Part shown: positions 7,164 through 39,435 of the stretch, piece by piece | Numbering within the stretch: position 1 is the first letter of the stretch | Layout: each line of letters opens with the position of its first letter | Source of the DNA: Lachnospiraceae bacterium AC2028 | GTDB lineage: Bacteria > Bacillota > Clostridia > Lachnospirales > Lachnospiraceae | Assembly: GCA_000702685.1 (NCBI GenBank) | Contig: JNJD01000010.1 | Span: forward strand, 124,001-188,000 | Direction of reading: 5' to 3' | Length of the DNA stretch: 64,000 nucleotides | Position numbers and translations under genes: made by a program | The notes under the pieces: model-generated | Database searches by the model: none | The model's input: the letters and a program-made list of their open reading frames with translations, nothing else | What the model was told of the DNA's origin: nothing

Positions 7164-7180
7164 ATCGGGAGATGAATGAT

Positions 7181-8440: not shown

Positions 8441-8455
8441 TGGTATGGTAAGCTG

Positions 8456-10348
8456 ATGAGATCAAAAGCATTTTTTTTACTGAAAATGTTCATATTGGTA
8501 ATCGCTTCATCCGCTGTTCTGGCCTTGTTTTTAATCCTGTGCTATCTGGTGCCACTGAATGAAAGTCATTTTTATCAGTCCATAGCTGAATTAGAAGCCG
8601 AAGGCTGGTATTCGGATGTGCTGGAGCAGCGCCCGGGGTACAGTGAATACTTCTTCAGTGAAGCACCGTCCATTCATCCCGTCTTTAATGATAAGATGGA
8701 CTATATCAGAGCCGGTGGCATTTCCGATAAGAGTGCTTTATATAATGCCATGGCAATGGAGGGAGAGGGAGGATTTCCTTATCCCAGGTACTGGCATGGA
8801 TATGCCGGCATTTTAAGATTACTTCTTGTTGCCTTTGACTGTAAAGAAATTAAATTCATGAGCTTTATCTTTCAGATGCTGCTCGTTGTTTTTATTCTGA
8901 TAAAACTCAGCAGGGTGAAAGATATCAGGTATTTGTTGCTTTTTATCACCCAGTATATCCTTTTGATGCCACTTACAGTATCATTCAGTATGGTCTTTGC
9001 CTTCAGCATTGATATTGCTCTGCTTGGGATTTTGGCTTTGTTGTATTTCCACAAGCAAATTAATGAATCATACAGGATATATTATTTCTTTTGCCAAATA
9101 GGATTGCTTACCTGTTTCTTTGAAGAACTGGTATTCGGGCTGCTTACCTGGGGAATGGTTATTCTCTGGGCTGTGATTTTGTATGGGCAGGAGAATAAGG
9201 TATTACAAAACATAAAGACTGTGATCTTTACGGCGCTCTCATGGATATGGGGCTATGCCGGAGTATGGGTGATGAAGTGGGTTTATGCTTCACTTACTCT
9301 TGGAGAAAACATTCTTCTCAATGGATACGAAAGCGTTGTGGTTAGGTCTTCAAGCACCAATGAAACCGATAATGTAGGTGTAAATGCTATCGAAAAGCTA
9401 GCCGACAGATTCAGGGCGCTAAGAGAAAACTACGAGTATTATTTTTATTCCGTATTTTTCCTGATACTTCTTATCTGGGTAATATACTTTCTGTTTAAAT
9501 ATATCTCAAAAAATACCGCTAAGGATTCAAGGGTTCCTGCACTGGGATTGATAGCTTTAGCTCCTGCCACATGGTATTTTGTATTGGCCAATCATACTCT
9601 TGGACATAGATTTATGACCTGGAGAATATGGAATCCTTCCGTAATAGCCGTGTTGTTTATAGTGTTGCTCTCATCGGGTGGATCGTCACTTTTTAAGAGT
9701 GAATCTGCCATGAAGAAAAGAAATATCTCAGTCAAGGGGATTTCTCTTTTGATTTCAGGAATCCTGGCAATAGTATGTACCGGGCTTATGACCGATGAAC
9801 TTGAGACCAAGAATATCGGTATACCCGGACAGAATATAGAATTCTCTGAATTCAGTGACGGTATTGCCAGGACTACGATTGTCCCTCAGTATAAAGTGAT
9901 GAAGGATGTGGGATTTATTCTGTCTCCGATTGGATCTGAAGGGGAATATGATATAAGACTAATGCTTGGTGAGAAGATTGTTCAGGAAAAAATACTTCCA
10001 ATGGATATGTTTCATGAAGCACAGTGGAGATTTCTTGAATATGATTGGGATGTAATACCGGGAGTTGAATATACTCTTGAGATCGAGCCAAAATGCGAAA
10101 ATGGAATGGAAGGATCCGTATGTGTATGTATTCCCGGACCGGATAAGATCCCTGAAATCGGATATATTCAGGGGAATGATGCATACCCTGATGCCCAGAT
10201 CACATGCAGTATAAATTATATTACCGGGCTTCTCGGAAGGAAGCGTTTATTCTTTGGTGTGTCATGGTTTATGGTATTTATGAGTGTTTGCCTTATAATT
10301 CAGAATGTGTTTGCTGTTAAGAAAAAAGGAACTTTGGAGAATGGATAA
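8456..10348 (+). CDS. Multi-pass membrane protein, unknown (GT-C-like layout)
   Basis: A 630-residue membrane protein: one N-terminal hydrophobic segment, an acidic extracytoplasmic loop of about 75 residues (about 35-110), a block of about ten hydrophobic segments up to roughly 440, then a beta-rich soluble domain (about 450-590) and a last membrane segment. The first loop after segment one, with acidic residues, and the PRYWHGY motif (about 109-115) before the next segment are reminiscent of GT-C glycosyltransferases that use polyprenyl-phosphate sugars, but no assigned family can be named from sequence alone. It lies between the uronic-acid enzyme and the methyltransferase with 15- and -8-base spacing, so it belongs to the cluster. 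Confidence 0.6.
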   Translation: MRSKAFFLLKMFILVIASSAVLALFLILCYLVPLNESHFYQSIAELEAEGWYSDVLEQRPGYSEYFFSEAPSIHPVFNDKMDYIRAGGISDKSALYNAMAMEGEGGFPYPRYWHGYAGILRLLLVAFDCKEIKFMSFIFQMLLVVFILIKLSRVKDIRYLLLFITQYILLMPLTVSFSMVFAFSIDIALLGILALLYFHKQINESYRIYYFFCQIGLLTCFFEELVFGLLTWGMVILWAVILYGQENKVLQNIKTVIFTALSWIWGYAGVWVMKWVYASLTLGENILLNGYESVVVRSSSTNETDNVGVNAIEKLADRFRALRENYEYYFYSVFFLILLIWVIYFLFKYISKNTAKDSRVPALGLIALAPATWYFVLANHTLGHRFMTWRIWNPSVIAVLFIVLLSSGGSSLFKSESAMKKRNISVKGISLLISGILAIVCTGLMTDELETKNIGIPGQNIEFSEFSDGIARTTIVPQYKVMKDVGFILSPIGSEGEYDIRLMLGEKIVQEKILPMDMFHEAQWRFLEYDWDVIPGVEYTLEIEPKCENGMEGSVCVCIPGPDKIPEIGYIQGNDAYPDAQITCSINYITGLLGRKRLFFGVSWFMVFMSVCLIIQNVFAVKKKGTLENG

Positions 10349-10961
10349 AGAGCAGGTGTTTCAGCCCGAAGGAAATTATTACGACAAATATAATACAAAG
10401 AATCCTATAGCCAGAAAGCTGATGACCGGTTATTTTGCGGCACTGGATTCTTTACTTGATATGATCAAAGATGAAATAAATACAGCACTTGAAGCCGGAT
10501 GCGGTGAGGGTGAAGTTTCTTTTCATGTATATGATCACTTTGAAGGCAAGTTGAAACTCGAATCATTTGATATATCTGATAAGGTGATTGCGGAAGCTGC
10601 CAAAAGAAATCCTGATATAAACTTTTCTGTCGGCAATATCTATGATGAGAACAGGGGAGTACACAATCTTGTACTCTGTTGCGAAGTTCTGGAGCATATG
10701 GAAAGACCAAGGGACGTTATTGCCAGACTTTTGGAGCAAACTGACAAATATTTGATAGTCAGTGTTCCCCACGAACCTATATGGCGTATGCTGAATATGG
10801 CGAGAGGAAAGTACATTAAGGATCTCGGAAATACTCCCGGACATATTCAGCATTGGACATCCAATGCTTTTAAGAAAGAATTTAAGGATTTTGATTGTGA
10901 GATACTTGCTGTAAGAAAGCCTCTTCCCTGGACGATGCTGCTTATCAGAAAGAACTCCTGA
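10341..10961 (+). CDS. SAM-dependent class I methyltransferase
   Basis: A 206-residue protein starting at ATG 10341, overlapping the previous stop by 8 bases. Motif I, LEAGCGEGEVS (50-60), and the acidic strand end SFDISD identify a class I S-adenosylmethionine methyltransferase; CCEVLEHME is motif IV of the UbiE/type-11 group. Together with the neighbouring GT2 and UPF0104 genes it may methylate a glycan or lipid carrier intermediate; substrate unknown. Confidence 0.82.
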   Translation: MDKEQVFQPEGNYYDKYNTKNPIARKLMTGYFAALDSLLDMIKDEINTALEAGCGEGEVSFHVYDHFEGKLKLESFDISDKVIAEAAKRNPDINFSVGNIYDENRGVHNLVLCCEVLEHMERPRDVIARLLEQTDKYLIVSVPHEPIWRMLNMARGKYIKDLGNTPGHIQHWTSNAFKKEFKDFDCEILAVRKPLPWTMLLIRKNS

Positions 10962-10994
10962 GCAGTAAAGTGACAGCCTTTTCGGAGGACCGTG

Positions 10995-11954
10995 ATGAAA
11001 CTTATAATTCAGATCCCGTGCTATAACGAAGCGGAAACACTGACAATTGCATTAAATGATCTTCCGAGGCACATTGATGGTATCGATGAGATTGAATATC
11101 TGATCATCAATGACGGAAGTAAGGATGAAACCGTAGAAGTTGCACGCAATTGGGGTGTAAATTACATTGTCAATTTCAAACAGAACAAGGGCCTTGCCAA
11201 GGGATTTATGGCAGGGCTTGATGCATGCCTCAGAAACGGAGCGGATATAATAGTCAATACCGATGCAGATAATCAGTATTGCGGTGAGGATATCGAAAAG
11301 CTGGTCCGTCCGATCCTAGAAGGCAAGACGGATATCGTTATCGGTGAAAGACCCATCGATCAGACCAAGCATTTTTCGCCTCTTAAGAAGAAACTCCAGC
11401 ATCTCGGAAGCTGGGTTGTAAGGATTGCGTCCGATTCGGATATTCCGGATGCTCCGAGCGGATTCAGGGCATTCAGCCGTGAGGCTGCAATGAGACTGAA
11501 CGTTACGAATGAATACACTTATACTCTTGAGACGATTGTTCAGGCCGGCAGAGAGAAGATACCTATGACCTCTGTTCCCATAAGGACCAACGGGGAATTA
11601 AGACCTTCAAGACTTTTCCATAGTATGATGGGTTATGTAAAGAGATCGATGCTCACGATCATAAGGGCATTTATTATGTACAAGCCTTTGAAGTTCTTCA
11701 CCATACTTGGAATCATTCCTTTTTTGATCGGCGTGGGAATAGGCATAAGATATCTGGTGCTTTTGGCTTGCGGTGCTCAGGGCGGACATGTCCAGTCATT
11801 GATCTTGAGCAGCATTTTGATATTGATGGGATTTATGACCATAGTCATCGGACTGCAGGCGGATATTATAGCATCTAACAGAAAGCTCCTTGAAGATATT
11901 CAGTACAGGATAAAGAAGATCGAGTATGACAAAAACGGGGAGCAGGATAAATAA
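10995..11954 (+). CDS. GT2 glycosyltransferase, polyprenyl-phosphate type
   Basis: A 319-residue GT-A enzyme of family 2. Seen: IPCYNEAETL at the N-terminus, INDGSKDET (38-46), the DXD-type metal motif TDADNQY (89-95), PSGFRAFSREA, and two C-terminal membrane segments (about 228-285). This matches polyprenyl-phosphate mannosyl/glucosyltransferases (DPM1/GtrB-like), which load one sugar on undecaprenyl phosphate for transfer outside the cell. ATG 10995 lies 6 bases after GGAGG (10984-10988); the GTG at 10992 is less likely. It overlaps the UPF0104 gene by 29 bases. Confidence 0.86.
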   Translation: MKLIIQIPCYNEAETLTIALNDLPRHIDGIDEIEYLIINDGSKDETVEVARNWGVNYIVNFKQNKGLAKGFMAGLDACLRNGADIIVNTDADNQYCGEDIEKLVRPILEGKTDIVIGERPIDQTKHFSPLKKKLQHLGSWVVRIASDSDIPDAPSGFRAFSREAAMRLNVTNEYTYTLETIVQAGREKIPMTSVPIRTNGELRPSRLFHSMMGYVKRSMLTIIRAFIMYKPLKFFTILGIIPFLIGVGIGIRYLVLLACGAQGGHVQSLILSSILILMGFMTIVIGLQADIIASNRKLLEDIQYRIKKIEYDKNGEQDK

Positions 11955-25331: not shown

Positions 25332-25360
25332 TTGAGGAAAACGTTTGCAAATGCTATAAT
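25332..25360 (+). promoter_or_regulatory. Strong promoter of the signalling block
   Basis: TTGAGG (25332-25337), 17-base spacer, and an extended consensus -10 TGCTATAAT (25352-25360). The spacer contains AAAACGTTTGC, sharing GAAAACGTTT with the xylB upstream site. ATG of the first gene is 45 bases downstream. Confidence 0.75.
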
Positions 25361-25404: not shown

Positions 25405-27783
25405 ATGGCAGATTGGATAATCATTGTTGATGATGACTCTGTGAACCTGAAAATGGCGGGCCGTATCCTCAGTGAATACGGCATGAGGGTAACCGCTTTA
25501 AAGTCAGGCTCCGCATTCTTAAAATACGTCCGTGAGAACGGAACTCCCGACATTGTGCTCCTCGATATCCGTATGCCCGAGATGGACGGCTTTGAGACAC
25601 TGACCCAGTTCAGGATGCTCGAGCAGGACCAGGGCTTCATCGAGACTCCTGTTGTCTTCCTTACCGCAGATGAGGACAAGGACAGCGAGATGCGCGGATT
25701 CAGGATGGGAGTTTCTGACTTCATCCATAAACCTTTCGATCCCGACATCCTCATTCAGAGGATCGTCAATATCATCGCATCCAGCAAGAAACTTCAGAGC
25801 GTCGAGCAGAAAGCGGCACACGATCTTCTCACCGGCTTCTACAACAAGGAGGCTACGAGGGACAAGCTGTCCATTATGTGTGCACGCAAATCCGGCGCAC
25901 TCCTTATGATCGACCTTGATTCGTTCAAGCTCGTCAATGACATCTACGGTCATGACATGGGCGACAAGGTTCTGATCTCTTTTGCCAATATCATGAAGAA
26001 CCTTTCCGAACCCAACGGCACCTGCGGCCGTATCGGCGGAGACGAGTTCATGATGTTCTTCGCAGGCCTGCAGGACGAGAGCGGTGTTGCGGACTTTTCA
26101 TCCAAGCTTAATTCAAGGCTTCTGGAATCGGCATATGAACTGATGGGAGAGGATATGCACATCCCTCTCGGAGCATCGGTCGGTGCGGTATTCGTACCCG
26201 AGCAGGGAACGGATTTCGAGAACCTTTTCAACATGGCCGACCAGGCACTTTATATCGTAAAAGACAACGGAAAGCACGGCTATTTCGTAAACCGCGGTGG
26301 CAGGACCTCCAATGAAACGGAATCCGGTTCCGATATCGATCTTAAGACGATGTCCAAGCTCCTTGAAGAGCGCGGCGCAGCCACCAACGTTATGTGGCTC
26401 GGCCAGGACGAGTTCGGAAGCGTCTACAGATACATGATGAGAATCCTTGAGCGCTACGGTATCTATGCTCACAAGGCACTTTTTACGATCCGCAGAAAGT
26501 CCGAGGACATATCCGATGAGATCAAGGACAAGATGGCGGATTCCCTCAGGGAAGTCATCCAGTCCAACCTTCGTAATTCCGACATCATGGTTCGCGTCGG
26601 AATGGACAGATTCTTTCTTTTGCTCCCCGAGCTTACTCCGGAGCATGTTGAGCGTGTAACCGCCAGGATCAAGGGCGCGTGGTCGAATCTGAAATTCGGT
26701 AATGACGCTGAGGTCATCTGTGAGTACGAATCCATCTCTCCTTCCGGAGACAAGGTCAAGGCAGCAACGGACATCGATGCGGAGAGAATAGTCATCGTCG
26801 ATGATGACGGTACCAACCTTATGGTCGCCGAGCGCATCATCCGTAAAGAGGGCATGGAGGTCAAGTGCCTTAAGTCCGGTAAGGAGCTCCTTGATTATCT
26901 GTCATCCAACTATGCCGACCTTGTTCTGCTCGATATCAAGATGCCCGAGATGGACGGCTTCGAGACTATGCAGAAGCTGACCTCGATGGGCGGCAGGGCA
27001 TCCAAGATCCCGGTTATCTTCCTTACCGCAAGCGATGACAACGAAACCGAGGCCAAGGGATTTTCACTCGGTGCGATGGACTTCATCCGCAAGCCCTTCA
27101 TCCCCGAGATCCTGATAATGAGAGTCAAGCATGCGATCCGTCTGATCAGGCTTCAGAACCGCCTGAGAAGCGAGGTCAACGATGAGGTCAAAAAGAACGA
27201 AGAGCTTTCGATCCACATCATCCAGGCACTCGCCGCCGCAGTCGACGCGAAGGATATCTATACGAGAGGCCACTCCGAGAGAGTTGCGAAATATTCGAGG
27301 ATGATTGCCGAGGAGATCGGTTACGACGAGAATGCATGCAACAATATCTACATCATGGGTCTTCTTCACGACGTGGGTAAGATCGGTATCCCCGATGAGA
27401 TCATCAACAAGAAGGGCACTCTCACCGATGAGGAATATGAGATAATCAAGACTCACACGACCAAGGGTGCGAACATCCTTGATTCGATCCCTGAGATGCC
27501 AGGACTCCGCACCGGTGCAAAGTGGCATCACGAGCGCTATGACGGAACAGGTTATCCCGACGGACTTTCCGGCAAGGACATCCCCGAGGAAGCACGTATC
27601 ATCGCGGTTGCCGATTCCTATGATGCGATGACCAGCCGCAGAAGCTACAGGGATGCACTTCCCCAGCAGGCGGTAAGGAGCGAACTTGAAAACGGAATGG
27701 GAACCCAGTTCGATCCGAGATTTGCTCAGATAATGATAGACAAGATTGATGCAGACAAAGACTACCTTATGAGGGAGGTATGA
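25405..27783 (+). CDS. REC-GGDEF-(degenerate GGDEF)-REC-HD-GYP protein
   Basis: A 792-residue cytosolic protein able in principle to make and break c-di-GMP. REC1 (1-125) with phospho-acceptor Asp54 and Lys109; GGDEF (about 140-295) with an intact GGDEF motif (211-215) and no RxxD inhibitory site just before it; a second, degenerate GGDEF-like module (about 325-450) with GMDRF (399-403) in the motif position; REC2 (461-580) with Asp510; HD-GYP (600-790) with GHSERV, HDVGKIG (655-661), and HHERYDGTGYP (708-718). Two receivers in one chain suggest two separate kinases control the opposing activities (inference). It heads the signalling block and precedes a hybrid kinase by 4 bases. Confidence 0.9.
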   Translation: MADWIIIVDDDSVNLKMAGRILSEYGMRVTALKSGSAFLKYVRENGTPDIVLLDIRMPEMDGFETLTQFRMLEQDQGFIETPVVFLTADEDKDSEMRGFRMGVSDFIHKPFDPDILIQRIVNIIASSKKLQSVEQKAAHDLLTGFYNKEATRDKLSIMCARKSGALLMIDLDSFKLVNDIYGHDMGDKVLISFANIMKNLSEPNGTCGRIGGDEFMMFFAGLQDESGVADFSSKLNSRLLESAYELMGEDMHIPLGASVGAVFVPEQGTDFENLFNMADQALYIVKDNGKHGYFVNRGGRTSNETESGSDIDLKTMSKLLEERGAATNVMWLGQDEFGSVYRYMMRILERYGIYAHKALFTIRRKSEDISDEIKDKMADSLREVIQSNLRNSDIMVRVGMDRFFLLLPELTPEHVERVTARIKGAWSNLKFGNDAEVICEYESISPSGDKVKAATDIDAERIVIVDDDGTNLMVAERIIRKEGMEVKCLKSGKELLDYLSSNYADLVLLDIKMPEMDGFETMQKLTSMGGRASKIPVIFLTASDDNETEAKGFSLGAMDFIRKPFIPEILIMRVKHAIRLIRLQNRLRSEVNDEVKKNEELSIHIIQALAAAVDAKDIYTRGHSERVAKYSRMIAEEIGYDENACNNIYIMGLLHDVGKIGIPDEIINKKGTLTDEEYEIIKTHTTKGANILDSIPEMPGLRTGAKWHHERYDGTGYPDGLSGKDIPEEARIIAVADSYDAMTSRRSYRDALPQQAVRSELENGMGTQFDPRFAQIMIDKIDADKDYLMREV

Positions 27784-27787
27784 CAAG

Positions 27788-30529
27788 GTGGACCGAAGAA
27801 ACGTCCAGAGTGAGACCTACAAGCAGTCTCATCTCATAATACTGATCGTATATACGGTTCTCAGCGTTGTTCTTATCGTTGAATCGTTCATCATGGACTG
27901 GGAAAAATGGGCGGTAATGCTCATAGTCGCCGTCCTCATAACCGCCTGGTTCATGCATATCAGGAGCATCTTAAGGGATCGTGACAGGCTCTGGCTCTAT
28001 TCCTGCCTGATGATGGCCACATACTTTTTCTACGGTGTCCACCTGACGAGTACATTCGATATGGCGCTCGTCATGTGCGTTGTCATCGCAATCTACACTA
28101 TGACGGGCGAAAAGCCTCTGGTGCGTCTGTGCCAGGTTTTCTACATCGTTACTCTTGCCTTCGACCTTGGAACCATGATATCCCAGGGCGAAGAGATCAC
28201 ACCTCTTCTTATAACAAGATCCCTTCTTCATGTGGGAATGATCATCCTTGCCGGCTGGGTCGCTTGCACGATCATCGACAAGTGGACGAAGGTCATCGGC
28301 TCGTCGAGCGAAGAGATCGAGACATTAAAAGAGCAGACGGACCGTCTGAATAATTTCCTTGCAAACGTTTCCCACGAGATCCGTACACCCGTCAATGCGG
28401 TCATGGGTCTTTCTTCCGTCCTCGAAAAAGAAACCCTTCCCGAGAATATCGAAGACAATATCAGGGCCATATCAAATGCGGGCCACAGAGTTGCCGAGCA
28501 GATAGGTGACATTCTCGATTTTACCGAGATCGATATGCAGAAGCTTTCCGTGAACAACGAGCCCTATATGATCGACTCGGTCGTCAACGACCTTCTTTCA
28601 CAGTTATCCCATATGGATAAAAATGATCTTGATCTTGTCATTGACCTTGATGCATCCGTTCCCGCGGAGCTCAGGGGCGACGGTGAGAAGATCCGCAAGA
28701 TCCTGCTTCATCTTATCAGCAACGGTTTCAAGTACACCCGCGAGGGCGGTGTGTATGTAAGGATCTATTCCGTGCCCAGAGAGTACGGTATCAATCTTCT
28801 CCTTGAAGTGCGCGATACCGGTATCGGAATGAACGCATTTGAGATCGAGCATATCTATGACAAGTTCTATCAGTCCGATTCGAGCAAGACCAGAAGCGTC
28901 GGCGGTCTCGGTATCGGTATTCCCATCGTTAACGGTTTCGTCAGTGCGATGAACGGATTCATGGATATCCAGTCGAAGCGCGGTGTCGGAACAACGGTCA
29001 AGGTAAGCATCCCTCAGGCTGTTGAGGATAATTCAAAGTGCATGTCCGTACGAAACAGGGAGAATATTTCCGTCGGCGGTTTCCTCGGATTCATGACGAC
29101 CGGCAATATCGGTGTCAGGGAATTCTATATGGATATGATCTCCAACATCGTTTCGGGATTATATGTTCCTTTCCACAGGATCCAGTCCAAGTCGGAGCTT
29201 GAAAAGCTTCTTACGGTTTCGCATATCACACACCTTTTTGTCGGAACGGGTGAGTATCTCGAGAACAGGGAATACATCGAAGAGCTCTCTAAGGATATCA
29301 AGGTTGCGGTTGTTCTTGACCGCAACAAGAGTCTCGATTCCGGAAGCAAGATCACCCAGATTCCTAAGCCCTTCTATGGTGTACAGATTGCAAACTTCCT
29401 GAACCAGACTCTCGATGACGAACTGGTTGAGGGACATGAGAAGATGATGTGTCCCGGCGTCAAGGTTCTCGTCGTTGATGATGAGCCGATGAACCTTCTC
29501 GTTGCGAGGGGAATATTCGAATCCTACGGAATGGTTGTAGATACCGTTCACAGCGGCGAAGCATCGATCGCAAAGTGTGCGGGCGAAGATTACGATATCG
29601 TCTTCATGGATCATATGATGCCTGAGATGGACGGTGTCGAGGCGATGAAGAGACTGCGCGTACAGGCTTCCCATATGAGGAGGGATATTTGCGTTGTTGC
29701 TCTAACCGCAAATGCTATCAGCTCTGCGCGTGAAATGTTCATGTCCGAAGGCTTCGACGGATTCGTGCCCAAGCCGATCGAACTTCCCGAACTCGAAAGA
29801 GTCCTCAAGCACGTATTGCCCAAGTCCGCCGTACAGTATGTCATGGATGACGGCGCGGGCAGGAAGATCGGAGGAAAGAAGGAGTCTGCAGCAAAGCTCG
29901 TTGACAGTGACGGCGTGAAGAAGCCGGTTCCTGTTACTGATGAGAAAAATTCCGGAAAGACCGGTTCGGACGGAAAGAATGCTGACGTCAAGGCGGATAA
30001 GTCTGCAAGCAGTGCCGAGAGCAAAATTTCGTCTGGTATGGGTTCTGATAAACCGGCAGTTGCAGATGCAGATTCCGAGATCTCTTTTGCTCCGCTTGAT
30101 TCTCTCGGCGTGGATACCGCCGCAGGTCTTGCTTACTGCGGAGGAGATGAGCAGTTCTATAAAGAGCTCCTTGTCGAGTACGCGGGCAATCCCGATGAAA
30201 AGCTCGGTGAGATCTTAAAATATTATGATGCGAAGAACTGGAAGGATTATTCGATCAAGGTCCATGCGATAAAGAGCACCTCCAAGATGATCGGCGCAAT
30301 GGATATTTCCGAGCGTGCAAAATTCCTTGAGGAAGCTTCCAAGGAATGTGATGAAGCCAAGGTTAACGAAAAGCATGCAAACCTTATGGGAGATTATGGA
30401 AGACTCATAAGGACTGTTTACGATACATACGGTGAGGGCAGGAATAAGGCACCCGAGCCTGAGCCCGAAGGCACTGAGACAGGTGAAAGCGATGTGCTGG
30501 AGTTTGGCCCGAAGGGTGGTGACTTATGA
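27788..30529 (+). CDS. Hybrid histidine kinase (HK-pseudoREC-REC-HPt)
   Basis: A 913-residue membrane kinase. About six membrane segments (12-165), HisKA with His196 (NVSHEIRTP), HATPase with Asn312 and DTGIGM, a receiver-like region without the acidic signature (about 430-545), a true REC with Asp608 (MDHMMPEMDG), a low-complexity charged linker (690-765), and HPt with His826 (KVHAIKSTSK). This permits a full phosphorelay in one chain, ending on a receiver such as those encoded at 25405 or 39455 (inference). Start is GTG at 27788, 7 bases after GGAGGT (27775-27780). The stop overlaps the next start. Confidence 0.88.
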   Translation: MDRRNVQSETYKQSHLIILIVYTVLSVVLIVESFIMDWEKWAVMLIVAVLITAWFMHIRSILRDRDRLWLYSCLMMATYFFYGVHLTSTFDMALVMCVVIAIYTMTGEKPLVRLCQVFYIVTLAFDLGTMISQGEEITPLLITRSLLHVGMIILAGWVACTIIDKWTKVIGSSSEEIETLKEQTDRLNNFLANVSHEIRTPVNAVMGLSSVLEKETLPENIEDNIRAISNAGHRVAEQIGDILDFTEIDMQKLSVNNEPYMIDSVVNDLLSQLSHMDKNDLDLVIDLDASVPAELRGDGEKIRKILLHLISNGFKYTREGGVYVRIYSVPREYGINLLLEVRDTGIGMNAFEIEHIYDKFYQSDSSKTRSVGGLGIGIPIVNGFVSAMNGFMDIQSKRGVGTTVKVSIPQAVEDNSKCMSVRNRENISVGGFLGFMTTGNIGVREFYMDMISNIVSGLYVPFHRIQSKSELEKLLTVSHITHLFVGTGEYLENREYIEELSKDIKVAVVLDRNKSLDSGSKITQIPKPFYGVQIANFLNQTLDDELVEGHEKMMCPGVKVLVVDDEPMNLLVARGIFESYGMVVDTVHSGEASIAKCAGEDYDIVFMDHMMPEMDGVEAMKRLRVQASHMRRDICVVALTANAISSAREMFMSEGFDGFVPKPIELPELERVLKHVLPKSAVQYVMDDGAGRKIGGKKESAAKLVDSDGVKKPVPVTDEKNSGKTGSDGKNADVKADKSASSAESKISSGMGSDKPAVADADSEISFAPLDSLGVDTAAGLAYCGGDEQFYKELLVEYAGNPDEKLGEILKYYDAKNWKDYSIKVHAIKSTSKMIGAMDISERAKFLEEASKECDEAKVNEKHANLMGDYGRLIRTVYDTYGEGRNKAPEPEPEGTETGESDVLEFGPKGGDL

Positions 30530-32883
30530 TGGAGGATAAGAACAGACGGTTTTCCGACAGATACGGAGATTCGAAAGGTGAGTTCTGGGGAAGGTTATTC
30601 CTCATTCTGACCCTGGTTTCGCTTGGATTTGTCGGCATCGTATTGATCATAGACATTTATCATTCCAAGTCCCTCTGGGAGATCATCATCAAGAGCATTG
30701 CGCTCGGCGTTGAAGTCGTTATCTTTTTCATGGTCAGATTCCTTGCCAGGCTCTTCAGGATGGAAAATGAAAAAGCACACGACAAGACCCGTGAGGTTGA
30801 GGAACTGAGCCGTTCGAAGTCCAGGTTCTTTTCCAATATGAGCCACGAGATCCGTACTCCAATCAATACGATCATAGGTCTCAATGAGATGATCCTCAGG
30901 GAAGATATCTCTCCCGAGGTTGAAGATGATGCAAGGAACATAAGATCCGCATCGGGCATGCTCCTTTCACTGATCAATGACGTTCTTGATATGTCGAAGA
31001 TCGAATCCGGAAATATGGCGCTCGTTCCCGTGACCTACAACACCGGTGACATGCTTTCCGAGATCGTAGGTATGATCTGGGGAAGAGCCAATGCCAAGGG
31101 ACTTAAGTTCACGATCGATGTCGATCCCGATATCCCCGCGCAGCTCTTTGCCGATGAAGTGAGGATCAAGCAGATCCTCATCAATCTTTTGAACAACGCG
31201 GTCAAGTACACCCAGGAAGGAAGCGTTTCCCTTTCCATCCAGTCGAGGCGTCTCGACTCCGGTAAGGTTCTGGTCATCTATACCGTTGAAGATTCCGGTA
31301 TGGGCATCAAGAAGGAAAGCATTCCCTATCTCTTCGATGCATTCAGACGTGAGGACGAAGGCAAGAACCGCTACATCGAAGGCACGGGCCTTGGTCTTTC
31401 CATAGTCAAGCAGCTCGTTGATCTTATGGGCGGTAACATCACCGTAAACAGTATTTATACAAAGGGTTCCACCTTTACCGTTTCAATCGAGCAGGAGATT
31501 GCCGATGAATCCGCACTCGGTGATTTCAGGATCTCCAGGCAGCAGATCAAGAGCCACAAGGAATCGTACAAGCCTCAGTTTGAGGCTCCCGACGCACATG
31601 TCCTGATCGTTGATGACAATACCGCCAACCTCATGGTTGAAAAGAAACTGCTCCGCTCGACCAGGGTTATCGTTGATACCGCAGAAAGCGGAAAAGAAGC
31701 CCTTGAGCTTACGCTTCTCAATCACTATGATGCGATCTTCATGGATCATATGATGCCCGAGATGGACGGCATAGAATGCCTTAAGCTCATAAGGGAACAG
31801 TCGGGCGGAAGATGTGTTGCGACTCCCGTTGTTGTGCTTACCGCCAACGTAGGAAGTGAGAATCAGGCGCTTTACAAGAACGCCGGATTCGATTCATATC
31901 TTGTCAAGCCCGTTGACGGTTCCATGCTCGAGAGGACCCTTATGTCGGTTCTTCCCAAGAGTATGGTATCCGCAGATTCGTCCGCATATACGGGCGGTGA
32001 TGCGGAAGGCATCGTTAAGAGAGGAAGAAGAAGGGTTCCCCTCCTTATCACGACCGACTCCGTATCCGATCTTCCCGAGGAAGTCGTCGACCAGCTTGAG
32101 ATCCCTATCCTTCCTTACAAGGTTCATACCGATCACGGTGTGTTCTACGACGGAATCGAAACGGACGGTGATGCCATCGTCAGATATATGGACAATGACA
32201 TCAATGCACTTGCCAGGAGTGAATCACCGAGCGTTGCGGAATACGAAGCTTTCTTCGCGGACAGGCTCTTCGAAGCACAGCACATCCTTCATATCGCGAT
32301 CGCAAAGAATGCGAGTGAAGGCTACAAGAATGCATCCGAAGCCGCAAGGTCCTTCTACAATGTCAATGTCGTCGAGGCAGGGCACCTTTCGAGCGGATCC
32401 GGTCTGATCGTTATGAAGCTAAAAGAAGCTGTCGATTCAGGTATCACTAATCCCGAGCAGCTTTCACGGATCGTTGATGATCTCAGGAAGAAGGTTGTCA
32501 CCACATTCATCGTTGACAGCACCGAATATCTCCACAGAAACGGAAGGATGTCGGACAGAGCATACAGACTCTGTAACGCATTCATGGTGCATCCGATGCT
32601 CCGCCTGAAAAAGAGTACGATGGATGTCGGCGCGATAATGGTCGGAAGCTACGAAAGGGTTGCGGATACATATATCAGGCGCATTTTGAGAAATCCCGAG
32701 ACGATAGATACGAATATTCTCTTTATCACATATGTCGGTCTCAGGCTTGAAGAAGCGGAGAAGATCCGCGACAAGGTACTCGAGAGAGTTCCGTTCAAGA
32801 AAGTATATCTCCAGAAAGCATCACCCGCTATTGCTTCTAACAGCGGTACCGGTACTTTCGGTGTGATATTTGCAAGGAAGTAG
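30526..32883 (+). CDS. Hybrid histidine kinase fused to a DegV domain
   Basis: A 785-residue single reading frame. Two membrane segments (about 23-45 and 55-78), HisKA with His107 (NMSHEIRTP), HATPase with LNNAVKYT and GTGLGLSIV, REC (about 357-475) with Asp407 (MDHMMPEMDG), a short basic linker (about 485-502), then a complete DegV fatty-acid-binding domain (503-785): TTDSVSDLP (509-517), SPSVAEY, LHRNGRMS, and SNSGTGTFGV near the end. DegV/FakB proteins bind a fatty acid and present its carboxylate to the FakA kinase. Here the domain is tied to a membrane kinase, which suggests sensing of free fatty acid or acyl phosphate (inference). Start ATG 30526 overlaps the upstream stop (ATGA). Confidence 0.85.
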   Translation: MMEDKNRRFSDRYGDSKGEFWGRLFLILTLVSLGFVGIVLIIDIYHSKSLWEIIIKSIALGVEVVIFFMVRFLARLFRMENEKAHDKTREVEELSRSKSRFFSNMSHEIRTPINTIIGLNEMILREDISPEVEDDARNIRSASGMLLSLINDVLDMSKIESGNMALVPVTYNTGDMLSEIVGMIWGRANAKGLKFTIDVDPDIPAQLFADEVRIKQILINLLNNAVKYTQEGSVSLSIQSRRLDSGKVLVIYTVEDSGMGIKKESIPYLFDAFRREDEGKNRYIEGTGLGLSIVKQLVDLMGGNITVNSIYTKGSTFTVSIEQEIADESALGDFRISRQQIKSHKESYKPQFEAPDAHVLIVDDNTANLMVEKKLLRSTRVIVDTAESGKEALELTLLNHYDAIFMDHMMPEMDGIECLKLIREQSGGRCVATPVVVLTANVGSENQALYKNAGFDSYLVKPVDGSMLERTLMSVLPKSMVSADSSAYTGGDAEGIVKRGRRRVPLLITTDSVSDLPEEVVDQLEIPILPYKVHTDHGVFYDGIETDGDAIVRYMDNDINALARSESPSVAEYEAFFADRLFEAQHILHIAIAKNASEGYKNASEAARSFYNVNVVEAGHLSSGSGLIVMKLKEAVDSGITNPEQLSRIVDDLRKKVVTTFIVDSTEYLHRNGRMSDRAYRLCNAFMVHPMLRLKKSTMDVGAIMVGSYERVADTYIRRILRNPETIDTNILFITYVGLRLEEAEKIRDKVLERVPFKKVYLQKASPAIASNSGTGTFGVIFARK

Positions 32884-32885
32884 TC

Positions 32886-35252
32886 ATGAATCTTAAGGAA
32901 CTTGAAATAGGCAGGACTGCGACCGTCAAGTCCGTCGGCGGAAGCGGAGCGCTCAGACAGCACTTTCTGGATATGGGACTCATTCCGGGAAGTGACGTTA
33001 CCGTCATAAAATATGCTCCGATGGGCGACCCGATAGAACTGATGATATCGGGCTACGAGCTAACGATCAGGCTTGCCGATGCCGAGCAGATCGAGATTGA
33101 GAATGTTCGCAAGGCCTCAGCGGATCCGCATTCGGGTGATGCATCCGAAAAGTCCCATGTGAGGGACATACCTCACCCCAATATCGGTGAAGAGGCGGAT
33201 ACTCACGACTATCAGGTAGAGCATAAGGGTAAGAAGGTCAATACGGGCAAACTTACCTTTGCACTTGTAGGAAATCAGAACTGTGGCAAGACCACACTCT
33301 TTAATCAGCTGACAGGCTCCAACCAGCATGTCGGCAATTTTCCCGGAGTTACTGTAGACAGGAAAAGCGGTTCGATCAAGGGACATCCCGAGACGGAGGT
33401 TGTGGACCTCCCCGGGATCTATTCGATGTCTCCTTATTCGAGTGAAGAGATCGTATCGAGGCAGTTCATTCTCGATGAAAAGCCGACTGCAATCATCAAT
33501 ATCGTAGATGCTACCAATATCGAAAGGAACCTGTATCTTACGATGCAGCTTCTCGAACTCGATATTCCGATGGTCATAGCTCTGAATATGATGGATGAGA
33601 TGGCGGGAAACGGCGGCTCGGTCAAGATCAATCTGTTCGAGCAATTGATAGAAGTGCCCGTTGTTCCGATCTCCGCGGCGAAGAATCAGGGTATCGATGA
33701 ACTCATAAGACACGCGATACATATCGCAAAATATGATGAGAAGCCCGGACGCAGGGATTTCTGTGACAAGGATGATCACGGCGGTGCTGTTCACCGTGCG
33801 ATGCATGCCGTGATGAGCATGATAGAAGACCATGCGGAAAGTGCGGGAGTCCCGGTCAGATTTGCCGCGAGCAAGATCATCGAGGGCGATACTCTTATTT
33901 CCAAGGCTCTCGGTCTTCACAAAAAGGATATGGATGCACTCGGCACCATCGTCTCACAGATGGAAGAAGAGCGCGGACTTGATGCTGCTGCCGCAATGGC
34001 TGATATGAGGTTTTCTTTTATCAGGAAACTATGTGACAGAGCTGTCGTAAAGCCGAAGGAAAGCAAGGAACACGCAAGAAGCCGCAAGATGGATGCTTTC
34101 TTTACGGGCAAGTGGACTGCGATCCCTGCATTCATCCTGATAATGACTCTTGTCTTCTGGCTTACGTTCGGAGTGGTCGGTGCATTCCTTCAGGGAATTC
34201 TTGAGATGGGTATCGGCTTTATCACGGACAGGGTGGATGCGCTTCTTACCGCACTGGATATCGCTCCGTCGATACATTCGCTTGTGATCGATGCGGTGTT
34301 TACAGGTGTGGGATCGGTCCTGAGCTTTCTTCCGATAATCGTTGTGCTGTACTTTTTCCTGTCGATGCTCGAAGACAGCGGATATATGGCGAGAGTTGCA
34401 TTCTTCATGGATAAGCTCTTAAGAAGGCTCGGACTTTCCGGAAGAAGTATCGTGCCGATGCTGATAGGATTCGGATGTTCCGTACCGGCACTGATGGCTA
34501 CAAGAACACTTCCTTCCGACAGGGACAGAAAGCTTACCCAGCTTCTTATTCCGTTCATGAGCTGCAGCGCGAAGATGCCGATCTATGCATTCTTTGTTGC
34601 CGCGTTTTTCCCTAAGTACGGTGCGTTTGTTATGGCGGCTCTGTATTTTACGGGGATCCTGGTTGCGATACTTGTTGCGCACATTGCAAAGGTCACGGTA
34701 TTCAAGGGCGAGGCTGTTCCCTTTGTGATGGAGCTTCCCAATTACAGAATGCCGGGTCTTAAGAACGTTCTGATGCTTATGTGGGATAAGGCGAAGGATT
34801 TCCTTCAGAGAGCTTTCACCGTCATCTTCGTGGGAACGATAGTCGTGTGGTTTTTACAGACATTCGATCTTTCCTTCAATATGGTCTCTGATTCGGAAGA
34901 CAGCATTCTGGCACTTCTCGCGGGACTTATATCTCCCATATTTGCGCCCCTCGGCTGCGGTGACTGGAGAATTGTCACATCGCTGATCTCGGGATTTCTT
35001 GCGAAGGAAAGCGTTGTATCGATGCTATCGATCCTTTACGGCGGAATGGAAGGCCTGCATGCATCAATGGATTCGCTGACAGCGTTTGTTTTCCTGATCT
35101 ACTGCCTGCTTTATACTCCCTGCGTTGCCGCCATCGCGACCGTCCGCCGCGAAGCCGGAAGGAAAGCCGCTCTCAAGATGGTCATCTTCCAATGCGTTGT
35201 CGCATGGATCGTGGCATTTATCGTAAGGCTTGTGGGAGGCCTGTTTATCTGA
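32886..35252 (+). CDS. feoB: FeoA-FeoB fusion ferrous iron transporter
   Basis: A 788-residue fusion. FeoA SH3-like domain (1-76), a 40-residue linker holding five His (82, 91, 97, 107, 113), and FeoB with G1 motif GNQNCGKT (129-136), DLPGIYS (174-180), NMMDEM, then the membrane domain with about ten segments, including the two Gate regions (GFGCSVPALMATR and SCSAKMPIY). FeoB takes up Fe2+ with GTP hydrolysis. It lies 3 bases after the DegV-kinase gene and before a flavodiiron protein, so iron uptake is transcribed with the signalling genes (inference from spacing). Confidence 0.95.
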   Translation: MNLKELEIGRTATVKSVGGSGALRQHFLDMGLIPGSDVTVIKYAPMGDPIELMISGYELTIRLADAEQIEIENVRKASADPHSGDASEKSHVRDIPHPNIGEEADTHDYQVEHKGKKVNTGKLTFALVGNQNCGKTTLFNQLTGSNQHVGNFPGVTVDRKSGSIKGHPETEVVDLPGIYSMSPYSSEEIVSRQFILDEKPTAIINIVDATNIERNLYLTMQLLELDIPMVIALNMMDEMAGNGGSVKINLFEQLIEVPVVPISAAKNQGIDELIRHAIHIAKYDEKPGRRDFCDKDDHGGAVHRAMHAVMSMIEDHAESAGVPVRFAASKIIEGDTLISKALGLHKKDMDALGTIVSQMEEERGLDAAAAMADMRFSFIRKLCDRAVVKPKESKEHARSRKMDAFFTGKWTAIPAFILIMTLVFWLTFGVVGAFLQGILEMGIGFITDRVDALLTALDIAPSIHSLVIDAVFTGVGSVLSFLPIIVVLYFFLSMLEDSGYMARVAFFMDKLLRRLGLSGRSIVPMLIGFGCSVPALMATRTLPSDRDRKLTQLLIPFMSCSAKMPIYAFFVAAFFPKYGAFVMAALYFTGILVAILVAHIAKVTVFKGEAVPFVMELPNYRMPGLKNVLMLMWDKAKDFLQRAFTVIFVGTIVVWFLQTFDLSFNMVSDSEDSILALLAGLISPIFAPLGCGDWRIVTSLISGFLAKESVVSMLSILYGGMEGLHASMDSLTAFVFLIYCLLYTPCVAAIATVRREAGRKAALKMVIFQCVVAWIVAFIVRLVGGLFI

Positions 35253-36452: not shown

Positions 36453-36492
36453 AAGAAAACCGGTCAAATGATTATTCAGGGGAGAGATGATC

Positions 36493-39435
36493 ATGCTTGA
36501 TTTTCTTATGAGACACCAGACGGATGTAATGCTTGCGCTGAGCAGCATCTGTGCCATGACGACTTTCTTTGTCTTTTTGTCAGGTTCATTGGCAAAAGGC
36601 AGGAAGATCGCGCTTATGATAATGGAACTGGGCGGCATGATCCTGCTCATATTCGAGATGTTTTCATACATCTACAGAGGGGATATGAGCGAGCTTGGCT
36701 ATTGGATGGTGCGCATCGGCAATTTCATGACCTTTGCGATGATGCCGGTTCTCATGGCCGGATTTTCATACTATCTTTATGATCTTCTGAAGAACGATGT
36801 CGGATTAAAAAAGCCTCCCAGACGTCTGAGATCGATCTATGTTCTTGTCATCATAAGTGAGATCCTTATAGTCGGAAACATCTTCGGCAAGTATTATTAT
36901 GTGATCGATGAGCAGAACACTTATCATCGTTCATGGGCTTTCATGATCTGTTATGTCATTCCGCTGGTTGTTCTTGTAATTCTTCTGACTGTGATCTGTC
37001 AGTATTATAAGCAGATCAACAAGGATATCAGGATCTCGCTCCTTCTGTTCACGATTGCTCCCTTTGTAGGCTCATTCATACAATTCTTTATATACGGGCT
37101 TTCCATAACCGACATATTCATTGTCGGTACATGCGTAATGCTCTATGTGTTCGTGCTGATCGATCTTAATCACGCTAAAGCGGCAAAAGAGAAAACGGAG
37201 CAGAAGAACAGGGAGCAGATGGAGATCATTTCCACCATCGCTAACATCTACAATTCGATGTATGAGCTCGACCTTGAAAAGAGTACTTGTCGAGAGATAC
37301 GTGCAGGTTATTTATCCGCTGATGAGATAATCGAGAATGACCGGATGGATCTTCAGCAGATAGTTAATGCCATGATCGATAAGACAATAGATGCATCCTG
37401 TGTGGATGAAGATCTTTTGGAGGCAATGGATCTGAGCACCATCAATGACAGGATGCGTGATACGGATATCTGGACAAGGGAGCTAATGAGTCCGGAAAAG
37501 AAATGGAGACGTGGACGTATCATCGTATCAAAAAGAGATGATGACGGAAAGATCGCACGTATTCTGTGGGTTTCGGAGGATATAGACAAGGAGAGAAGAG
37601 AGAGAGAAAGGCTTAAGGATGAATCCGAGCGCGCGGTTGCCGCAAGTGAGGCAAAATCTGCATTCCTTTCAAATATGTCCCACGAGATACGTACGCCGAT
37701 CAATGCCGTGCTCGGTATGAATGAGATGATACTGAGGGAATGTGAGGATGAGAATATCCTGACATATGCGGGGAGTATCAGGACTGCGGGAACCACCCTG
37801 CTGGGACTGATCAATGATATACTTGATTTCTCCAAGATTGAAGCCGGCAAGATGGAGATAATCCCTGTCGAATACGAGCTTTCATCGGTAATCAACGATC
37901 TTGTCAATATGATCCGGACAAAAGCGGATGACAAGGGACTTGCGCTGAAGCTCGATATAGATAAGGATATACCGAATAATCTGTTTGGTGATGAAGTAAG
38001 GATCAAGCAGGTCATTACAAATATACTTACAAATGCGGTTAAATATACCGAAAAGGGAAGCGTGACTTTTGCGGTAAGCTTTGACAAGTCCGGAGCGGGT
38101 AATGAAATGATCGGATTGAAGGTTTCGGTCAAAGACACCGGAATCGGTATTAAAGAAGAGGATATGGGCAAGCTGTTCTCGAAGTTTGACCGTATCGAAG
38201 AAGAGCGCAACCGCAGTATCGAAGGCACCGGCCTTGGAATGAGCATAACCCGGAGGCTTTTGGAAATGATGGGTTCATCCCTTGAAGTGGACAGTATCTA
38301 CGGAGAGGGTTCGGATTTTAGATTTGTCATCAAACAGAAAGTTGTCAAATGGGATCCCATCGGAGATTACGAAGCTTCATACAGGGCATCTCTGTCCGCC
38401 CGTGTAAAATACAGGGAAAAGTTTACGGCACCCGAAGCGGATATTCTTGTTGTTGATGACACCGCTACCAATCTTGATGTATTCAAGAATCTCCTTAAGC
38501 GGACCAAGGTGCGGATCGATACCGCATCAAGCGGTGAAGAATGCCTGAAGCTGTCCGAGGCAAAGAAGTATGATATTGTGTTCCTGGATCATATGATGCC
38601 TGATAAAGACGGAATACAGACATTGCATGAAATGCGGGATATGACGGATAATCCCAACAGGAGTACAGCTGCGGTATGCCTTACCGCAAACGCCATAAGC
38701 GGTGCAAGGGAAAAGTATCTTTCGGAGGGCTTTGACGATTATCTGACCAAGCCCATTGATGCGGACAAGCTTGAGGAAATGCTCATTAGATATCTTCCCG
38801 AGGAAAAGGTCGTTTTATCCGAAAGTGAAGATGAACCCGGTGAAGAGGAAAAAACCCTTCCGGAATGGCTTCTGAAATGCGAGGGGATCGATGCCGGGGA
38901 AGGAGTTAAAAACTGCGGCGGATCCGAAGAATATTTATCTGTTCTTGACCGTTTTTATTCAACTATCGGCGATAAAGCGGATGAGATAGAGACATATTAC
39001 GATAATAATGATATAAAGAATTATACGATCAAAGTTCATGCGCTCAAATCATCCGCAAGGATAATCGGAGCCATGGACCTTTCCGAAAAAGCAAGATTGC
39101 TTGAGGAAGCCGGAAACGGTAATGATATTGAATATATAAAAGAAAACACAGCGGAATTACTGAGCTCGTATCGTTCTTATGAAAAAATACTTTCCGCGGT
39201 CTCGGAGAAATCCGAAGACCTTCCGGATATACCCGGGGAGGTGCTGGCCGATGCTTACGGAGGACTGTCGGAATTCGTGCAGATGCAGGATTATGAACTT
39301 GCCTGCATGGTAATGGGTTCGGTTAAAGAATACAGACTTCCTGAAGCCGACGAAGAACGTTTTAAGCGTATCGGTTCAAAACTTGCACGGATGGACTGGA
39401 ACGGAATAAAGGATATACTTAAAGAAGTTGAATAA
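36493..39435 (+). CDS. Hybrid histidine kinase (7TM-PAS-HK-REC-HPt)
   Basis: About 980 residues, numbered from the ATG at 36487. Seven membrane segments (about 12-225), a PAS-like region (240-365), HisKA with His399 (NMSHEIRTP), HATPase with LTNAVKYT and GTGLGMSI, REC with Asp in FLDHMMPDKDG (about residue 702), and HPt with KVHALKSSARI (about 854). ATG 36487 is only 2 bases after GGGGAG, so ATG 36493, 8 bases away, is the better start. Same domain order as the 27788 kinase; the HPt sequences are alike. Confidence 0.88.
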   Translation: MLDFLMRHQTDVMLALSSICAMTTFFVFLSGSLAKGRKIALMIMELGGMILLIFEMFSYIYRGDMSELGYWMVRIGNFMTFAMMPVLMAGFSYYLYDLLKNDVGLKKPPRRLRSIYVLVIISEILIVGNIFGKYYYVIDEQNTYHRSWAFMICYVIPLVVLVILLTVICQYYKQINKDIRISLLLFTIAPFVGSFIQFFIYGLSITDIFIVGTCVMLYVFVLIDLNHAKAAKEKTEQKNREQMEIISTIANIYNSMYELDLEKSTCREIRAGYLSADEIIENDRMDLQQIVNAMIDKTIDASCVDEDLLEAMDLSTINDRMRDTDIWTRELMSPEKKWRRGRIIVSKRDDDGKIARILWVSEDIDKERRERERLKDESERAVAASEAKSAFLSNMSHEIRTPINAVLGMNEMILRECEDENILTYAGSIRTAGTTLLGLINDILDFSKIEAGKMEIIPVEYELSSVINDLVNMIRTKADDKGLALKLDIDKDIPNNLFGDEVRIKQVITNILTNAVKYTEKGSVTFAVSFDKSGAGNEMIGLKVSVKDTGIGIKEEDMGKLFSKFDRIEEERNRSIEGTGLGMSITRRLLEMMGSSLEVDSIYGEGSDFRFVIKQKVVKWDPIGDYEASYRASLSARVKYREKFTAPEADILVVDDTATNLDVFKNLLKRTKVRIDTASSGEECLKLSEAKKYDIVFLDHMMPDKDGIQTLHEMRDMTDNPNRSTAAVCLTANAISGAREKYLSEGFDDYLTKPIDADKLEEMLIRYLPEEKVVLSESEDEPGEEEKTLPEWLLKCEGIDAGEGVKNCGGSEEYLSVLDRFYSTIGDKADEIETYYDNNDIKNYTIKVHALKSSARIIGAMDLSEKARLLEEAGNGNDIEYIKENTAELLSSYRSYEKILSAVSEKSEDLPDIPGEVLADAYGGLSEFVQMQDYELACMVMGSVKEYRLPEADEERFKRIGSKLARMDWNGIKDILKEVE

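Follow-up and report, generated by a model that had tools for sequence, protein, structure and literature searches.

The window examined here is a stretch of 64,000 nucleotides from Lachnospiraceae bacterium AC2028 (assembly GCA_000702685.1, contig JNJD01000010.1, positions 124,001 to 188,000), and coordinates given without another label refer to it. At 30526–32883 on the forward strand, an open frame runs from ATG to stop without interruption and encodes a protein of 785 aa, HK-DegV, in which a hybrid histidine kinase is followed by a C-terminal DegV domain. Two hydrophobic segments, presumably in the membrane (residues 20–48 and 49–77; 30583–30756; Kyte-Doolittle, window 19, above 1.6), precede the HisKA domain. 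Pfam locates HisKA at residues 97–162 (30814–31011; 67.2 bits), HATPase_c at 210–323 (31153–31494; 92.2 bits) and Response_reg at 359–469 (31600–31932; 80.0 bits). The DegV domain, placed by Pfam and residue mapping, occupies residues 507–784 (32044–32877) and covers positions 3–279 of the 280 in the profile with 129.8 bits, the Pfam cut-off being 27. All four domains score above their curated cut-offs, and the NCBIfam DegV model TIGR00762 gives 141.7 bits against a cut-off of 99.7.

The sequence features of a hybrid histidine kinase are all present in HK-DegV, namely the phosphoacceptor His107 of HisKA, the HATPase boxes and the receiver Asp and Lys, with Asp407 as acceptor. Among the 85 DegV proteins longer than 700 aa in our set, His107 is kept in 83, the N-box Asn in all 85 and Asp407 in 84, and the nine catalytic positions of HK-DegV are intact in 82–85. 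Departures occur in L128 and L138 and, at the receiver Thr, in L124 (L labels loci and G genomes throughout). By these sequence criteria HK-DegV is a hybrid kinase, with putative kinase activity. The motifs TTDSVSDLP and SNSGTGTFG of the DegV part are both found. An earlier note on this DNA had described the single-frame fusion with its two membrane segments, His107, Asp407 and both motifs, and the frame, the Pfam matches and the hydropathy profile confirm this description.

Directly upstream, at 27788–30529 on the same strand, lies the gene of a second hybrid kinase, HKA. The two genes overlap by 4 nt (ATGA), so that the stop codon of HKA is inside the start of HK-DegV. Pfam finds HisKA, HATPase_c and a receiver in HKA. 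Between HATPase and receiver we locate a pseudo-receiver (signature segment A3; 29075–29422), which has no acceptor Asp at the position inspected in 77/77 HKA proteins; the four kinase and receiver positions examined are intact in the same 77/77. HKA ends in an HPt domain (30134–30418), detected with 109.4 bits by our own hidden Markov model, which was built from ten Pfam-located HPt segments; Pfam does not list it at E 0.001. HKA is the partner of HK-DegV, and the two genes form a conserved two-kinase cassette that recurs in the family. This cassette, the variable position of DegV within it and its family-wide recurrence go beyond what the earlier note had described.

Scanning a genome collection with the DegV part of HK-DegV returned seven loci, six in Lachnospiraceae and one in a Spirochaetaceae assembly, all in metagenome-assembled relatives. 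The full kinase-DegV frame is present in six of them, and a contig end cuts the remaining one (L008). Whole-protein identity to HK-DegV is 92–93% in L007, L009 and L010, 59% in L011, 55% in L012 and 48% in L013. With a domain profile at E <= 1e-60, a close DegV-type relative was detected in 73 of 396 family genomes, at 100 places. Frames longer than 450 aa lie at 92 of these places, that of G341, which holds an internal TAG, among them. We refer to frames above this length as fused, a set that includes a few frames that lack the kinase part (L104) or run into a contig end (L008, L024) and in which the near copies (the window and L007–L010) were retained and are not independent. The search across Lachnospiraceae that the earlier note had proposed thus finds the fusion to be recurrent. 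Since the same fusion is present in many other assemblies, in frames of this length at 92/100 places, a sequencing or assembly error joining two genes, the artefact that the earlier note had considered, is excluded.

The fusion is seldom found beyond the family. In an order-level sample of 295 genomes, 14 have a match and one fusion lies outside the family (G620). In a phylum-level sample of 398 genomes, 17 have a match at E <= 1e-55, and at that threshold no kinase fusion was found outside the family, the 14 outside matches being frames of 286–397 aa. In a plasmid collection, 13 records match, all below 60% identity. The Spirochaetaceae assembly carries a single match at E <= 1e-20 (L013), on a contig that holds both HKA and HK-DegV, and the DegV domain of L013 falls inside the Lachnospiraceae rows of our tree; horizontal transfer and a misbinned contig are both compatible with this, and we do not decide between them. 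We also notice that in the HK-DegV of L013 about 240 residues, perhaps a sensor domain, lie between the two hydrophobic segments ahead of the kinase.

The linkage to HKA was followed from both sides. From the DegV side, 80 stretches of up to 16.5 kb were taken around 80 DegV places, and in the resulting neighbour table (which leaves out L001–L005, L052–L058, L008, L024 and L039) the gene directly upstream is an HKA homologue in 78 of the 86 cassettes having such a gene. In 64 of these 78 pairs, the DegV frame has its first Met between -20 and +60 nt from the stop of HKA. On the 396 family genomes, the HKA pseudo-receiver profile is positive in 82 at E <= 1e-10; HKA and the DegV type occur together in 70 genomes, and the DegV type alone in 3. 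From the HKA side, a DegV gene follows 0.8–4.5 kb downstream on the same strand at 84 of 97 HKA places (E <= 1e-20). Of the other 13, four have a DegV that is below the first threshold or contig-cut, and in nine the contig ends within HKA or no more than 1.7 kb after it.

The position of DegV within the cassette varies. It may be C-terminal, as in the window, or placed before an HPt domain; it is N-terminal, before the membrane segments, in L094 and L099; it is joined to an HPt domain without a kinase in L104; and it is a free gene beside HKA in L133, L157, L158 and L160.

The HPt domain links the two proteins further. Among 77 cassettes with an HKA longer than 640 aa, HPt is found in HKA only in 58, in the DegV protein only in 18, in both in none and in neither in one; this last cassette is L094, in which the DegV frame runs off the contig. 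Seven further cassettes have it in HKA only (6) or in the DegV protein only (1). Over the 84 cassettes the totals are 64 in HKA, 19 in the DegV protein, none in both and one in neither, cassettes with a fragmented or cut HKA (for example L060, L066, L089 and L137) being left out of the count. Most cassettes combine an HKA of 810–1150 aa (718 aa in L096) that has HPt at its end with a DegV protein lacking this domain. A clade of 16 rows (support 100/100) and a few other rows show the opposite: HKA, where available, is about 680–720 aa long and lacks HPt, which is found in the DegV protein instead. The HPt-bearing DegV proteins have the orders HK-REC-DegV-HPt (HK, kinase; REC, receiver), DegV-dCache-HK-REC-HPt and DegV-HPt without a kinase; in the last of these (L104) the HPt domain is under the Pfam cut-off and gives 88.9 bits with our own model. 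A single HPt in one partner or the other is what would be expected if both proteins form one relay that needs one HPt.

On the basis of Staphylococcus aureus FakB1, we compared the residues of the DegV domain, after checking the FakB1 numbering against the deposited chain. In the part of the FakB1 report available to us (PMC8892158), a network of Thr62, Ser95, Ser171 and His270 holds the fatty-acid carboxylate, catalysis depends on Arg173, a latch residue, and Arg205 is the residue that binds FakA and contacts the membrane. The equivalents in HK-DegV are Ser565 (Thr62), Ser597 (Ser95), Asn672 (Ser171), Arg674 (Arg173), Val706 (Arg205) and Asn772 (His270). Residue tables were made for 92 fused domains (L039, with an in-frame stop, was dropped). 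Position 270 is Asn in 86 and His in 2, and Arg205 is kept in 2 and absent in 90. Ser or Thr occupies position 62 in 80/92, position 95 in 67/92 and both in 66/92. In the tunnel, most fused domains have aliphatic residues at positions 121 and 162, and 70/92 have Thr or Ser at position 158; position 92 is Lys in 38/92. The earlier note had raised the case that the pocket residues are replaced: this is so at position 270, now Asn772, and not for the hydroxyls of Ser565 and Ser597 or for Arg674, which are kept. The uniformity of Asn270 suggests that the head-group site has been retuned and not abandoned.

For comparison, 40 family genomes were searched with PF02645; 38 match, and in 29 the best match was taken as a locus, all of them stand-alone. 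In these 29 ordinary DegV proteins, which as best-scoring matches per genome lean to canonical members, Arg205 and Arg173 are present in 29, and His270, Thr62, Ser95 and Gly171 in 28 each. Because position 171 is Gly in nearly all of them, Asn672 tells little. On the other hand, the non-fused DegV proteins adjoining HKA (L133, L157, L158 and L160), as well as L080, have Asn270 and no Arg205, so the signature goes with linkage to HKA and not with fusion as such. On the tree, support of 100/99 separates the fused rows, L133 and L080 from the remaining stand-alone rows and those taken from the PDB; the divergent DegV rows have end branches with a median of 0.38.

The genome of the window itself encodes one FakA and four stand-alone DegV proteins that keep Thr62, Ser95, Arg173, Arg205 and His270, so its Fak pathway need not depend on HK-DegV. 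A fifth stand-alone copy (L005, C6:392536-393342) has no Arg205 and no residue aligned at His270; it is the weakest match to the fused-DegV profile among the five and is perhaps another DegV protein outside the Fak pathway.

The gene in front of the cassette (25405–27783, forward strand) encodes a response regulator with two receivers, GGDEF in two matched stretches and HD-GYP (Pfam Response_reg twice, GGDEF and HD_5), which is the probable output of the cassette. Using our own profiles, we found a receiver protein without a kinase within three genes of the cassette in 71/86 cases: REC-HD-GYP in 28, REC-GGDEF in 11, a receiver alone in 17 and other receiver proteins in 15. Running Pfam on ten neighbour genes gave two REC-HD-GYP, two REC-GGDEF, one receiver, two chemoreceptors and three unrelated genes. 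We notice that in L127 and L134, which belong to one clade, the gene before HKA encodes a chemoreceptor signalling domain (MCPsignal), in the place that the regulator has in other cassettes. Upstream of the regulator, a promoter-like site matches the consensus at 10/12 positions, with TG before the second hexamer (25332–25360, forward strand); this is a consensus match only, and the region holds 15 such sites with 13.2 expected by chance.

Directly after HK-DegV, at 32886–35252, FeoA and FeoB are encoded as one protein, the FeoA domain being residues 1–72 of a 788-aa FeoB. The same FeoA-FeoB gene lies downstream in the near relatives L007, L009 and L010 and begins after the gene in L008. It is beside no other cassette of the neighbour table, and a link to iron was set aside as incidental. 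Three genes downstream of HK-DegV, on the same strand, a further hybrid kinase with a receiver and HPt is encoded at 36487–39435.

On the basis of these observations, we propose that HK-DegV is one half of a membrane two-kinase phosphorelay whose other half is HKA. Since the two proteins share a single HPt, we infer that phosphate would pass between them, and then to the neighbouring regulator. The DegV domain would lie on the cytoplasmic side as a FakB-related ligand-binding module. Its ligand, for which an acyl lipid taken from the inner leaflet, such as a fatty acid, is the likeliest candidate, may alter the activity of the kinase pair, and the signal would run from the ligand through the kinase pair, the single HPt and the regulator to cyclic di-GMP (c-di-GMP), the direction of the effect being a matter of presumption. 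A fatty acid is suggested as ligand by homology and by the hydroxyls that are kept at the carboxylate-contact positions. That DegV is a sensor of a ligand, probably a lipid, which acts through the two-kinase relay on a c-di-GMP regulator and does not feed FakA, is the reading to which we give somewhat better than even chances. We put it forward more tentatively, at slightly under even chances, that the cassettes make up an undescribed class of intracellular fatty-acid-sensing phosphorelays in Lachnospiraceae, with two kinases, one HPt and a FakB-fold sensor that the loss of Arg205 has uncoupled from FakA and the change to Asn270 has retuned; such a relay would set c-di-GMP and, in bacteria of gut and rumen, would have arisen by convergence as the counterpart of RpfC/RpfG. 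The earlier proposal that a bound fatty acid controls the kinase is retained in so far as DegV may control kinase signalling; the fatty acid itself is a candidate ligand deduced from sequence.

The place of DegV directly after the receiver in the usual architecture allows a different reading, in which DegV is the output: the phosphorylated receiver would switch loading or release of fatty acid at the membrane, and the kinase would control lipid traffic. FakB1 exchanges fatty acid at membranes, according to the part of its report at hand (PMC8892158), and HK-DegV has hydrophobic segments. We consider this improbable. DegV also occurs N-terminally, with HPt in the absence of a kinase, and as a free gene; Arg205, which in FakB1 both binds FakA and contacts the membrane, is lost in 90/92; and in 71/86 cassettes an output is available in the form of a separate regulator gene. 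DegV accompanies HKA whether it is C-terminal, N-terminal or free, and this is more in keeping with a regulatory module that binds a ligand than with an output coupled to a single receiver. There is very little to be said for DegV as a FakB that feeds the FakA of the cell, the kinase fusion merely putting it at the membrane, even though the domain is homologous and the genome has one FakA. Arg205 and His270 are each absent in 90/92 fused domains and present in 29/29 and 28/29 ordinary ones, and the same genome has four stand-alone DegV proteins with both residues. Without Arg205, the domain is unlikely to serve FakA, and the same loss speaks against the suggestion of the earlier note that it presents fatty acid at the membrane, in so far as the Fak pathway is meant.

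Binding of a lipid may also have been given up altogether, with the DegV fold retained as a scaffold or as a module for protein contacts, through which HKA and HK-DegV stay attached to each other. The tight association of DegV with HKA across several architectures speaks for such a role, as do the poor conservation of Arg173 and His270 and the long end branches of the divergent rows. Asn270 in 86/92 and a hydroxyl at position 62 in 80/92 point to a constraint on the pocket region that a mere scaffold would not need, and we regard the scaffold as unlikely, though the least unlikely of these alternatives. A small non-lipid ligand would agree with the uniform change of the head-group site to Asn270, with Lys92 in 38/92 and with Thr or Ser at 158 in 70/92. 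The tunnel positions 121 and 162, however, are mostly aliphatic, and solved DegV structures are repeatedly titled as fatty-acid or lipid binders, so that this idea too has only a slim chance of being right.

Several observations weigh against a lipid-sensing two-kinase relay. Regarding the HPt pattern, eight of the ten seed segments of our model come from cassette proteins that were later scored and match by construction, and two of the HPt calls in HKA are weak (13.4 bits in L135 and 20.1 bits in L098). On the tree, the pattern needs only 3 changes; just 2 independent pairs are well supported, and although both are concordant, no test can be based on so small a number. The pattern is therefore strict but reflects few events, and it is not a statistical proof. 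Regarding the ligand, Arg or Lys is found at position 173 in only 51/92 fused domains (in a wider DegV set, position 173 is Arg in 40/88, and the window keeps it as Arg674). With His270 changed and Arg173 variable, some members may have another ligand or none. The AlphaFold2 models are too poor to show the DegV pocket, with a mean predicted local distance difference test score of 63.3 for the DegV domain (8 rows) and 50.9 for the whole HK-DegV (7 rows). Foldseek with the low-confidence DegV-domain model returned FakB1 first (E 1.9e-17, template-modelling score 0.54, root-mean-square deviation 12.8), which agrees with homology and says nothing about the pocket. The genes examined beside the cassette of the window are not lipid-metabolism genes. 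Regarding the output, no regulator lies within three genes in 11/86 cassettes, and in 4 there is only a chemoreceptor.

The linkage to HKA has its exceptions as well. At 16/100 DegV places the list holds no upstream HKA match; some of these are at contig edges, and L128, L138 and the tandem L063 are real exceptions. From the HKA side, three of the 11 weaker HKA places (L144, L145 and L146; E 3e-19 to 2e-14, with HPt) show no DegV in the downstream DNA, which extends for about 5.5 kb in two of them and 1.8 kb in L144. Distant HKA relatives can thus lack DegV, and these three possibly represent an older or separate kinase branch.

The exceptional loci show features of their own. The DegV proteins of L128 (7240-9834) and L138 (7204-9831) have a kinase part without HisKA, altered receiver residues and no HKA neighbour, and L128 (genome G103) matches the HKA pseudo-receiver profile directly before DegV; they are perhaps a merged, degenerate form. 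In L063, two tandem HK-DegV genes (5995-8661 and 8697-11384) have no HKA adjoining, one of the two keeps His270, and an HKA is found on a different contig of this genome, at its end (G384:C5).

We found no paper describing such a kinase-DegV fusion, judging by titles and abstract openings among the matches listed, preprints and subscription papers being outside the scope of the search, and literature on cyclic di-GMP, Lachnospiraceae and HD-GYP together gave no match. Within the parts available, PMC3146951 concerns a DegV gene adjoining hemolysin III, and PMC12594616 deals with ordinary FakB. If the proposed reading is true, a fold known so far as a carrier of lipids for phospholipid synthesis would gain a role in signalling. 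Moreover, fatty acids of the membrane or the diet would be a concrete signal feeding into c-di-GMP in this large family of gut and rumen bacteria. To our knowledge, few sensor kinases have been shown to bind fatty acids. The single HPt in either partner predicts directly, and in a form open to test, which two kinases make one relay, and the signature of Asn270 without Arg205 would let annotators separate signalling DegV domains from FakB proteins.

Compared with known systems, HK-DegV has the HisKA-HATPase-receiver core in common with the hybrid kinases BarA, ArcB and TorS. Its best partial NCBIfam matches are BarA and TorS, for which it scores far below the curated cut-offs, and among the best 25 of 142 NCBIfam families the DegV part is covered only by the DegV domain model. 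With the FakB/DegV family (PF02645; S. aureus FakB1, PDB 6mh9 and 5uto) it shares a homologous full-length domain, including hydroxyls at the positions of Thr62 and Ser95 and the equivalent of Arg173. It differs from FakB1 in being fused to a kinase, in having Val706 in place of the FakA-docking Arg205 and Asn772 in place of His270, and in belonging to a separate clade. As the fused DegV lacks two FakB features, Arg205 and His270, it should not be named FakB.

The nearest logic that is known to us is that of RpfC/RpfG, a quorum-sensing system of Xanthomonas. The likeness is one of logic only, and there is no sign of a diffusible signal here, RpfF not having been searched for. As described in the part of PMC5391125 available, RpfC is a hybrid kinase with receiver and HPt domains. 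An N-terminal sensor of 22 aa binds the fatty acid DSF (diffusible signal factor), and the signal goes on to an HD-GYP regulator. RpfC has five membrane helices, whereas the cassette described here has a DegV domain and two kinases. In both systems, a membrane hybrid kinase carries a receiver and HPt (here HKA), a REC-HD-GYP regulator is encoded nearby (adjacent in the window, at 25405–27783, and within three genes in 28/86 cassettes), and the signal is a fatty acid, presumptively so in the cassette of Lachnospiraceae.

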